From a virus, in IMG/VR virus record IMGVR_UViG_3300036832_001158, positions 1 through 20,427 of that record: DNA of 20,427 nucleotides; one strand, 5' to 3'. Every line of letters begins with the position of its first letter. Position 1 is the first letter of the stretch. A program made the translations under genes and the position numbers. The notes beneath the pieces are model-generated. The model made no database searches and was not told the DNA's origin. It saw only the letters and a program-made list of their open reading frames with translations. Of the stretch, positions 14,748-18,529 are shown piece after piece.

Positions 14748-14939
14748 ATGCCCTGGCGGGTCAAACGCCTGCTCTGGCTGATGGCCTGCGGGTTCGGGGT
14801 CCTCGCCCTGGCCATCGTCGTCCTCGTCCGCGACCGCTCCACCGACACCGAGCTACTCGCCTACATCGGCATCCTCGGCGGGATCGCCATCATCCTCACC
14901 AACCTGCCCACCAACGGCAACCACGACGACCACGATTGA
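14748..14939 (+). CDS. Putative two-helix holin
   Basis: A 63-residue membrane protein beginning one base after the previous stop (TAG then ATG). It has a basic start (MPWRVKRLLWL), two hydrophobic segments (about residues 8-27 and 38-54: LLWLMACGFGVLALAIVVLV and AYIGILGGIAIILTN) and a charged, Asp/His-rich cytoplasmic tail (NGNHDDHD). This is the class II holin layout, and it lies after the amidase. A holin triggers lysis by opening the inner membrane. No sequence family is recognised; function is inferred from topology and position. Confidence 0.6.
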   Translation: MPWRVKRLLWLMACGFGVLALAIVVLVRDRSTDTELLAYIGILGGIAIILTNLPTNGNHDDHD

Positions 14940-14943
14940 ACTG

Positions 14944-14989
14944 CGTCTGTCCTGGCGAGCGCCGTTGCCCCCGGCGCCCGGGACAGACG
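14944..14989. terminator. Large hairpin between convergent lysis and integrase genes
   Basis: CGTCTGTCC (14944-14952) and GGACAGACG (14981-14989) are exact inverted repeats, and GGCG (14954-14957) can pair with CGCC (14975-14978) inside them. The hairpin lies in the 59-base gap between the rightward holin gene and the leftward integrase gene and would terminate both transcripts. There is no U-tract, so it may depend on structure alone or on Rho. Confidence 0.55.
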
Positions 14990-14998
14990 TGCCAACAA

Positions 14999-15973
14999 TC
15001 AGCCGTAGTGGCGGCCTTCCATGATCTCGGCCAGATGCTCCAGATCCAACCCCTGCACGTAGACCTGCGTCGTCTGTAGGGACTGGTGGCCGAGCATCTG
15101 CTGCACCCCGAGCACGTCGTGGTGGGCCTCGTAGACGTCGGTCGCCGCCGTGTGGCGAAGGGCGTGGGTCGACATCCCGTCGCCGGGGGCGTGCTTGACC
15201 CCGGCCCGTTCCATGGCCGCCGCCACCCATCGCCCCAACGTCTCGGGCAGTACCGGCTCACCGTTGCGCTGGTTCGACGGGAAGACCCACCCGGCGTGGT
15301 GGCCGCTCTCCAGCTGCCACGCCCGCAAATACGGGATGACCTGCGACGGAATAGTGACAGCCCGCTCATGGCCGCCCTTGCCTTTTACAAGTACTTTCGG
15401 GGTGGCGGCGAAGAATACGTCCCCCCATTGCAGGTTCGACATTTCGGCTCGCCGTAAACCCATTTGTACACCGAGCATCATCACCAGCTCGTCGCGGGTG
15501 CCGTCACACTGCAATAGGCACTCTTTGACCTGGACCTCGTCGAGGGCCCGGTGCACCGCCCGCGGCACCTTCGGAGCCTTCATCGAGCGCATCGGGTTGG
15601 AGCGCAGATGGTGACTAGCGACCAGCCAGTCGAGAAATTTCATGGCCACGGACCACCGGGTCCGCCGGGTCCCCGGGGCGAGCTGGGACATCGATTCGAG
15701 CCAGTCCTCGATATGGCGTTGCCGAATCTTGGCGGCGTGGCGGGGCATGTATTCGACGAAGCCGTCGAGGACCTGGCCCTGGGTGCGGGCCGTCAAGGGT
15801 CGTATCTCGCCCGTACGGTGGCGAGATTTGATCCAATCCGCCTTCAATCCCCTGACAGTTGCCGTAGCTAAGGGGTTTATCCCATCCTCGGGGTCTTGTA
15901 AAGGGGGGTTGCCACTGGATGTGGCTGTGTGAAGATGAACTGCGCGATGGGGGAAGTGCAGTAAGTCACCCAT
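14999..15973 (-). CDS. int: Tyrosine integrase
   Basis: Site-specific recombinase that integrates and excises the phage genome. The 324-residue product carries a SAM-like core-binding region (about 40-135) and a catalytic domain with Arg174 (GLRRAEM), Lys199 (VKGKGGHER), His270 and Arg273 (HALRHT), His296 (LGHQSLQTT) and nucleophile Tyr305 (QVYVQ). The ATG at 15973 is chosen because it overlaps the repressor stop as TAATG, so the genes are coupled. An upstream in-frame ATG at 16018 would overlap the repressor gene by 46 bases and has no proper ribosome site. The first roughly 40 residues before the core-binding domain are unlike typical arm-binding regions and unusually rich in His. Terminates next to the convergent hairpin. 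Confidence 0.9.
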   Translation of the reverse strand: MGDLLHFPHRAVHLHTATSSGNPPLQDPEDGINPLATATVRGLKADWIKSRHRTGEIRPLTARTQGQVLDGFVEYMPRHAAKIRQRHIEDWLESMSQLAPGTRRTRWSVAMKFLDWLVASHHLRSNPMRSMKAPKVPRAVHRALDEVQVKECLLQCDGTRDELVMMLGVQMGLRRAEMSNLQWGDVFFAATPKVLVKGKGGHERAVTIPSQVIPYLRAWQLESGHHAGWVFPSNQRNGEPVLPETLGRWVAAAMERAGVKHAPGDGMSTHALRHTAATDVYEAHHDVLGVQQMLGHQSLQTTQVYVQGLDLEHLAEIMEGRHYG

Positions 15974-16290
15974 TAGGCTGCCGAATATGCCCTCTGACCT
16001 GCGCAGATCGCAGTACATCTTGAACGTGATCTGATTTCCTCCTCATCACCGTCTGTGCCGACGAGCCAGAGCAGGGGGACGCCGCAGCGCAAGGCCCATA
16101 GACGGATAAGCGAGAGATTCAGGCGGCCCACCCGGTCGGTTTCGTAGCTCCGAAGCGTGTTCCGATGGGTGCCCAGTTCGGCGGCTAGTTGATCCCGAGT
16201 GAGTCCGGCCGCCCGGCGTGCTTTCCCCAGCCGGTCGCCCATCGTCCACTCTGGGATGTCGCCCTTATTCCAGTCGAACACCGATGACAT
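15973..16290 (-). CDS. Cro/CI-type repressor ending in an ssrA-like tag
   Basis: A 105-residue helix-turn-helix regulator. Residues 17-75 match the HTH_3 fold: MGDRLGKARRAAGLTRDQLAAELGTHRNTLRSYETDRVG. Probably the lysogenic repressor: leftward, directly upstream of the integrase, and facing an operator-bearing divergent promoter. The ATG at 16290 has no ribosome site; TAGACT (minus strand, 16303-16298) lies seven bases before it, which suggests a leaderless transcript. The last 25 residues (RSRSRCTAICAGQRAYSAA) are not part of the fold, and the end QRAYSAA resembles the mycobacterial tmRNA tag (as I recall, ...QRDYALAA). A tail of this kind would mark the phage-encoded form for proteolysis. 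Confidence 0.8.
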   Translation of the reverse strand: MSSVFDWNKGDIPEWTMGDRLGKARRAAGLTRDQLAAELGTHRNTLRSYETDRVGRLNLSLIRLWALRCGVPLLWLVGTDGDEEEIRSRSRCTAICAGQRAYSAA

Positions 16291-16303
16291 GTGCACAAGT
16301 CTA
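16291..16303 (-). promoter_or_regulatory. Predicted leaderless repressor promoter with operator half-site
   Basis: On the minus strand, TAGACT (16303-16298) as -10 is followed by seven bases and the repressor ATG, so the mRNA would start at or near the start codon. No good -35 is visible. The sequence between the -10 and the ATG reads TGTGCAC and its complement includes GCACAAG (16293-16299), the same half-site as in the xis operator, which suggests autoregulation. Weak promoter call. Confidence 0.45.
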
Positions 16304-16340: not shown

Positions 16341-16377
16341 TTGACAGAATCTTGTGCGTTTGCACAAGATGCGAGCC
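16341..16377 (+). promoter_or_regulatory. Rightward early (xis/cro-like) promoter, leaderless
   Basis: A perfect -35 TTGACA (16341-16346), 18 bases, then CAAGAT (16365-16370) as -10, seven bases, and the ATG at 16378. The mRNA is thus predicted to begin at the start codon, common in actinobacteria. The spacer contains the 18-bp operator, so repressor binding would block this promoter. The -10 fits the consensus at only three positions (A2, A5, T6). Confidence 0.65.
16351..16368. promoter_or_regulatory. Repressor operator (perfect dyad)
   Basis: CTTGTGC GTTT GCACAAG is an exact inverted repeat of 7-bp arms around four bases, placed between the -35 and -10 of the rightward promoter. A second half-site GCACAAG at 16293-16299 lies near the repressor start. 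The dyad is typical of a site for a dimeric helix-turn-helix repressor; the likely protein is the adjacent repressor. Confidence 0.75.
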
Positions 16378-16578
16378 ATGGACCTCCTCACCACGCGCCA
16401 GGTCGCTGAGACCCTTGTCCCACCGGTCGACGTTTCGACCATCTCCCGGTGGGTCCAGCTCGGCAAGATGACCGCGGCGGTCCGCCTGCCTGGAAGCGGG
16501 CAGATGCTCTTCGAGCCGGCCGAGGTCGAGCGGGTCGCCGCCGACTGGGCAGCATCCCAGCATTGCCGGGCGTCATGA
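16378..16578 (+). CDS. Excisionase/Cro-like small HTH protein
   Basis: A 66-residue protein divergent from the repressor and first gene of the rightward operon. It has a MerR-like/helix_turn_helix_17 domain: LLTTRQVAETLVPPVDVSTISRWVQLGKMTAAVRL, followed by LFEPAEVERVAADWAA. Such proteins act as recombination directionality factors that bend attP DNA with the integrase, or as Cro-like regulators. The ATG at 16378 is preferred because it is seven bases beyond the predicted -10 (leaderless); starts further upstream (16354) fall inside the promoter. It overlaps the methyltransferase start (ATGA). Confidence 0.7.
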   Translation: MDLLTTRQVAETLVPPVDVSTISRWVQLGKMTAAVRLPGSGQMLFEPAEVERVAADWAASQHCRAS

Positions 16579-17735: not shown

Positions 17736-18529
17736 GCACCGCGCTGGCGCCGACCGGGATCGACCGCGTCGACCTGGCGACCCGCACCTGGCAAGCGTCG
17801 TCGTTGCTGCCCGCCCATTTCCGCAACACCGACGGCTCGGTCAAAGTCGCCGACCTCCAGATCGCGTCGCTCACCCTCAACGCCCTCGACATCGACCCGG
17901 TCCGCAACCTGCCCGACGTGTACGTCGTTAACGGCCGGTGCGGGTTGATGGCCGAAGTCCAACGGGCTATCGCGGCCCGGGACGGCTGGGAGCTCGAGCT
18001 CGTCGAAGCGACCCCGATGTCGGCGACGTGGCGGATCCGCCGCCCCGGTGGCCAGTGGAAACTCGCCACCGTCACCATGGCCCAGGCCGTCAAGGCGGGC
18101 TGGACCCGCAACAAGTGCTACGAGACCATGCCGGAACGGATGCTGTCGGCTCGGGCCTGCACGCTGGCCGTGTCGCTCAACGCCCCCGGGATCCTGCGCG
18201 GCATGGCCGACGCCGTCACCGAGCTCGACATGGCCATACCGGCCGAGGGCGACGGGAAACCGACCACCGATGAGCGGGCATTCCTGCGGGCCTGTATCGA
18301 CCGGTTCGGCGACGGCGCCCGGGCGTGGCTGTTCGGGGTGGCCAAATCCGACGAGCTCCCCAACATCGACGGGCCCCGCTTCACCCTCGCCGACCGCGAC
18401 CGCCTGGCCTGGCATCTCCTCAACGCCCAGCAGATCACCGAGCCCGGCGCCGCCCCCGCCGCGCCCGACGAGGGCGACGCCGCCGAACCGGTACCCGCCG
18501 ACGTCCACGACGACACCGAACCGGCATGA
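17732..18529 (+). CDS. RecT-like single-strand annealing protein
   Basis: A 265-residue protein with a RecT-family-like layout: early ALTL...LDIDPVRNLPDVYVVNGRCGLMAEVQRAIAARDG, ATWRIRRPGGQWKLATVTMAQAVKAG, then KCYETMPERMLSARACTLAVSLNAPGI, the last resembling the R/K-rich PxxML.ARA element of actinophage RecT relatives. The C-terminal roughly 40 residues are acidic and Pro-rich (AAPAAPDEGDAAEPVPADVHDD) and likely disordered. Function would be annealing of complementary strands during phage recombination. The match is by pattern memory, so another replication-associated role is possible. The ATG overlaps the previous stop (ATGA), and its own stop overlaps the next start the same way. Confidence 0.55.
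   Translation: MSTALAPTGIDRVDLATRTWQASSLLPAHFRNTDGSVKVADLQIASLTLNALDIDPVRNLPDVYVVNGRCGLMAEVQRAIAARDGWELELVEATPMSATWRIRRPGGQWKLATVTMAQAVKAGWTRNKCYETMPERMLSARACTLAVSLNAPGILRGMADAVTELDMAIPAEGDGKPTTDERAFLRACIDRFGDGARAWLFGVAKSDELPNIDGPRFTLADRDRLAWHLLNAQQITEPGAAPAAPDEGDAAEPVPADVHDDTEPA

Follow-up and report, generated by a model that had tools for sequence, protein, structure and literature searches.

Among integration-dependent repressors, gp33 of phage BPs has been studied experimentally, and Angel, of cluster G, is a relative of BPs (PMC4557955; PMC5559632; PMC9934374). Exchange of the penultimate alanine of the BPs repressor (A135E) stabilises the protein (PMC4557955). The small Gordonia phages of cluster CW have been reported to use integration-dependent immunity as well, and a 37-bp attP in tRNA-Lys has been reported for some of them (PMC5559632).

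The locus described here lies in the virus record IMGVR_UViG_3300036832_001158, the 20,427 bases of which are referred to below as the window. On the best explanation, its source is probably an uncultured, temperate actinobacteriophage with a small genome. The terminase is closest to those of small-genome Gordonia and Arthrobacter phages (EricDab, 36%; Maggie, 34%), and EricDab (16.7 kb) has its integrase, repressor and excise genes in the same order as the window. Alignments of the integrase lead to related ~20-kb phages in IMG/VR; a single-protein search with the integrase found no close relatives in genome_contigs or viral_contigs, and a prophage search by alignment in genome_contigs returned only integrases of about 24-34% identity, with no prophage, attL or attR.

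A preliminary description of this DNA had proposed an integration-dependent switch, and we regard it as likely that the cassette is an immunity switch of the BPs/cluster G kind. This is the likeliest reading because of the architecture, the homology, the tail and the composition of the locus. Homology to gp33, gene order and overlap, the -AA end and the constraint at the junction all speak for the proposal, while its argument from tmRNA tags has to be given up.

Repressor, integrase and divergent gene

The cassette comprises the following features.

15973-16290, minus strand: repressor gene, 105 aa, with an Xre-type HTH (residues ~17-76) and the C-terminus AGQRAYSAA (from the ORF, HTH_3, PHROG 2328 and homologues)
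15971-15975, minus strand: TAATG, overlap of the repressor TAA and the integrase ATG (read from the sequence)
14999-15973, minus strand: tyrosine integrase, 324 aa, with its ATG overlapping the repressor stop and the end GRHYG (Phage_integrase)
14943-14990: strong hairpin between convergent genes (-35.4 kcal/mol, z -4.9)
16378-16578, plus strand: excisionase/MerR-like protein, 66 aa (PHROG 66)
16351-16368: CTTGTGC-GTTT-GCACAAG, a putative operator that closely follows a TTGACA hexamer at 16342-16347 (read from the sequence)
16290-16299, minus strand: partial copy of the operator-like site (CTTGTGCACA), covering the repressor start (read from the sequence)

The 105-residue HTH repressor of the preliminary description is readily recovered: the reverse complement of 15973-16290 is an ORF of that length which ends in ICAGQRAYSAA* and matches both HTH_3 (PF01381, E 3.7e-9) and PHROG 2328, transcriptional repressor (1.9e-15). 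The comparison with BPs-type repressors is likewise upheld by detectable homology to cluster G gp33, since the protein of Angel is 38% identical over 81 aa (E 3e-5) and other cluster G gp33 proteins also match. The closest repressor of a named phage is gp19 of the Curtobacterium phage Barebow (40%, E 1e-11). Compared minus the last 22 residues, the nearest homologues are those of the uncultured phages L181 (51%), L182 (51%) and L011 (48%), of Barebow (46%) and of L009 (45%); within the 46-51% homologue range, the repressors of L181, L182 and L011 adjoin related integrases. Homology of the repressor bodies stops near residue 80, and the tails diverge. HTH families are found in most aligned repressors, with HTH_31 in 22 of the 26.

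The repressor stands directly upstream of a tyrosine integrase (Phage_integrase, 2.9e-27), and the TAATG overlap of stop and start that had been claimed is present at 15975-15971 on the minus strand, which fits one operon. Both genes are contiguous and the record reads straight across them; on the assumption that the switch behaves like that of BPs, it would thus represent the free genome. In some relatives an HNH endonuclease gene splits the repressor from the integrase (L011, 5209-5883; L182, upstream of the integrase).

The hairpin at 14943-14990 sits between the integrase and a convergent gene at 14748-14939 and is probably a bidirectional terminator. This bears on the idea that attP lies elsewhere, for example in the gap at 14940-14998 that had been named as an alternative, and that the cassette operates without integration-linked immunity. 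The gap does flank the 3' end of the integrase and holds an inverted repeat; it is, however, filled by this single, highly stable hairpin, which separates convergent genes and is most simply read as a terminator, and it is at the opposite end of the integrase that the shift in composition and the DNA word associated with integrases, both described below, are found. We consider such a location of attP highly improbable.

On the side of the repressor start, the proposed order of integrase, repressor, divergent operator and xis-like gene stands as far as the genes are concerned, and the product of 16378-16578 (plus strand) matches the excisionase/MerR family PHROG 66 (6.6e-5); the operator itself is putative. 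It consists of a perfect 7-bp inverted repeat between the repressor and the excisionase/MerR-like gene, and an automatic promoter scan around it found nothing.

The repressor tail and its DNA word

The penultimate alanine is invariant in the aligned repressors (26/26) and the last residue nearly so, the ends seen being AA or AS and nearly all of them AA. Only one of the 20 listed genes of the window, the repressor, ends in Ala-Ala, and so do 33 of 477 gene-like ORFs of viral relatives, most of these 33 being repressors and integrases. These counts indicate that the Ala-Ala end of the repressor is not due to chance. Judged by its sequence, the repressor carries the ssrA-like -AA end of a putative degron. 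The integrases of L008, L009, L010, L011, L012, L015, L169 and L171 also end in AA (GRNYDDAA, GRDYAA and similar), and that of the window in GRHYG; the phage of the window may have lost proteolysis of its integrase.

The QR-Y of the tail resembles mycobacterial tmRNA tags, a likeness to which the preliminary description had drawn attention. QRAY, however, is encoded by a widespread non-coding DNA word, and the host need not be a mycobacterium. Since that word spells QRAY, the resemblance would be its by-product. QRxY occurs in no other tail examined, the shared part being the final Ala-Ala only, and support for the putative degron comes from this terminal Ala-Ala only. A likeness to tmRNA tags can thus come from a DNA word instead of tag mimicry. 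The word has the following loci.

15983-16002 of the window, minus strand: GCAGGTCAGAGGGCATATTC, encoding A97-S103 (AGQRAYS), a copy of a widespread actinobacterial and actinophage DNA word (from pattern counts)
attP regions: L231, L232, L234, L235, L263, L275 and L276
Genome ends: L273 and L278-L283
tRNA-flanking: L242-L253

The window contains exactly one copy, with 0.01 expected. The duplex form of the word is AAAACCGCAGGTCAGAGGCCATTTCC, and its most constant part is the core GCAGGTCAGAGG, often with AAAACC before it. When up to two mismatches are allowed, the pattern GCAGGTCAGAGGGCATWTYC has about 53 matches in 296 Actinomycetota genomes, compared with 3 for the reversed control; a related 30-mer matches 752 phage records and 141 plasmids, the phages being almost exclusively those of actinobacterial hosts and most matches falling in unannotated DNA. 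In Phaded, Kimona, Crossroads, OnionKnight, Holliday, Taj and Wintermute a tyrosine integrase follows the word at a distance of about 100-450 bp, and in such phages the word itself sometimes comes directly after tRNA T-arm sequence. Many other phages carry it within ~50-200 bp of the genome end. In host genomes it is found beside tRNA genes in several cases, in two of which an integrase is also adjacent. A literature search on the word found no relevant paper.

Within non-coding DNA, AAAACCGCAGGTCAGAGG(SCATWTYC) is strongly enriched in actinobacteria and in their phages and plasmids, above all upstream of tyrosine integrases, close to phage genome ends and beside tRNA genes. It is conceivable, although we hold it to be quite doubtful, that (AAAACC)GCAGGTCAGAGG(SCATWTYC) represents a conserved actinobacterial host-factor site, present at attP and near the cos ends of unrelated phages, which has moved into the repressor gene here. 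The IHF sites of lambda offer a parallel for a host-factor site both at attP and near cos. If the idea is true, one DNA segment would serve recombination and also encode the residues next to the degron. Hundreds of actinophage genomes contain the word close to integrases and genome ends, and its role can be tested directly.

The repressor-integrase junction as a candidate attachment site

Several features mark the junction of the two genes.

15823-16035: probable attP zone, made up of the final 20 repressor codons and codons 1-50 of the integrase, with a third-position GC of 0.50 where most other genes have ~0.90
15932-15944, plus strand: arm 1 (13 bp) of an inverted repeat, AAGATGWACTGCG, bracketing the repressor/integrase junction
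16009-16021, minus strand: arm 2 (13 bp) of the AAGATGWACTGCG pair, bracketing the same junction
16004-16033, minus strand: candidate core region CAGATC-ACGTTCAAGATGTACTGC-GATCTG, the centre of which (16016-16028) matches the frame and position of CTACCARATGG, a word found in relatives

In the repressor, third-position GC drops from 0.75 (residues 1-81) to 0.40 in the final 20 residues, with the fall at residue ~86; in the integrase it is 0.52-0.56 over codons 1-50 and mostly 0.7-0.95 beyond. The pooled value of the 70-codon junction zone compares with a mean of 0.90 (sd 0.06) in other 70-codon windows, in a comparison that skipped genes with internal stops and whose lowest windows (18325-18331) come from a hand-set gene start. 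In the repressor tails of the closest relatives third-position GC falls likewise in most cases. A 13-bp inverted-repeat pair like that of the window arises in about 3% of simulated random sequences. Both composition and inverted repeat are signs that the junction is under non-coding constraint.

Fifteen relatives have an 11-bp word in common, CTACCARATGG, which keeps to a single reading frame and lies 31-61 nt before the repressor stop. In these uncultured phages the word is close to the 3' end of HTH repressor genes that are divergent or unrelated and that precede related integrases; by BLAST, the repressor bodies separate into two or more groups without mutual similarity. Across the relatives, the word keeps T, C, A and G at its third codon positions even though the residues that it encodes differ (S/P, K/R), a sign that it is constrained as DNA. 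It looks as an in-gene attachment core would and makes, with the -AA tail, a candidate attP core. Extended to 15 bases, it is absent from 246 Actinomycetota genomes. Its positions are as follows.

L009 2909, L010 1684, L011 5151, L012 4736, L015 5125
L175 5465, L176 3302, L181 4621, L182 5282, L185 5883
L187 2097, L188 884, L189 4464, L193 5178, L195 3490

CTACCARATGG itself is not in the window. By position and frame, its counterpart there is TTCAAGATGT at 16016-16028, flanked by CAGATC and GATCTG, and we regard 16004-16033 as a weak candidate for the core. If the position of the relatives' word corresponds to the core, integration would cost the repressor about 12-16 residues, where the preliminary description had expected the last 20-30.

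The comparison proposed earlier, of an attP core with host genomes and tRNA 3' ends, yielded neither an attB nor a tRNA-type core. The attB DNA search gave no convincing match in 396 Actinomycetota genomes and in 247 + 138 further genomes, taken from the class and order around Acidimicrobiia MAGs, and no tRNA, tmRNA or T-arm core was found at the junction by ARAGORN, Rfam or T-arm reading. Two attB candidates were rejected. One, a 26/30 match in a gene resembling DAHP synthase/chorismate mutase, came from two closely similar related loci only and is at chance level; the other, an apparent attB at 15980-16002 (three genomes, one spot), proved to be the widespread DNA word and not an attachment core.

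The composition zone, the inverted repeat and the homologous position agree, indirectly, with a putative attP inside the repressor, and an attP at the junction gains weight because the DNA word sits just upstream of the integrase. The zone of low third-position GC nevertheless reaches codon 50 of the integrase, and the inverted repeat has its centre at the stop/start overlap, which would allow a crossover at or beyond the stop. This would suit a conventional repressor-integrase operon, with attP in the 5' end of the integrase or at a place that spares the repressor ORF, in which the Ala-Ala repressor is short-lived regardless of integration and only expression and host proteases determine how stable it is. 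The DNA word, moreover, is outside any repressor gene in Phaded, Taj, Wintermute and OnionKnight. On the other hand, the word shared by the relatives, whose repressors and integrases are homologous, is inside the repressor gene, low third-position GC is located in the repressor tail, and a permanently unstable repressor would mean poor lysogeny. An operon of this conventional kind is therefore, in our estimation, unlikely.

Under the integration-dependent switch that we favour, the free phage would make the full 105-aa repressor with its C-terminal Ala-Ala degron, and the instability of this form would favour lytic growth. The integrase would be made from the repressor message, and the observed overlap suggests co-translation. 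It would recombine an attP at the repressor 3' end or integrase 5' end with a host site, upon which the prophage repressor would lose its last ~12-20 residues together with the degron and become stable. Acting at the CTTGTGC/GCACAAG operators, the stable repressor could then shut off the divergent xis/early promoter and so confer immunity, and integration would at the same time separate the integrase from the repressor promoter.

Comparison with known systems

If this reading is true, integration-dependent immunity extends to uncultured ~20-kb actinobacterial phages. Among these, L009-L016 and L169-L195 (IMG/VR) resemble the window in their integrases (~30-38%) and in repressors that end in AA, several of them 39-46% identical over the full length; they differ in that the repressor 3' end of fifteen of them includes CTACCARATGG, a word absent from the window. 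Repressors that are divergent, but stand next to related integrases, have a short DNA word and an -AA tail in common, suggesting that the attachment site moves together with the tail, as one module.

The cluster G phages (BPs gp33/gp32; the sequence of Angel was used) have in common with the window a homologous HTH repressor, the order of repressor followed by integrase, overlapping genes, a divergent xis/cro-like gene and a penultimate alanine at the repressor C-terminus. In contrast to theirs, the tail of the window repressor has no antisense tRNA T-arm core, ends in SAA instead of KAS and belongs to a protein of 105 instead of 136 aa; moreover, attP and proteolysis are putative in the case of the window. 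A T-arm core can be read in the repressors of Angel, Barebow, Rahul, Wizard and L013 and is absent from that of the window. Curtobacterium phage Barebow (18.3-kb genome) has the same gene order in gp18-gp20, but it has a 64-bp gap between repressor and integrase, the T-arm peptide GLEPPTF in the tail and an RAS end, and its integrase is only 27% identical to that of the window. The small-genome Gordonia phages (Rahul, Coeur, EricDab and those of cluster CW) share a related terminase, a similar genome size and the cassette order, whereas a 37-bp core of the tRNA-Lys type is absent from the window. The gene order of the window is common to Angel, Barebow, Rahul, PhrostedPhlake, Wizard and EricDab.
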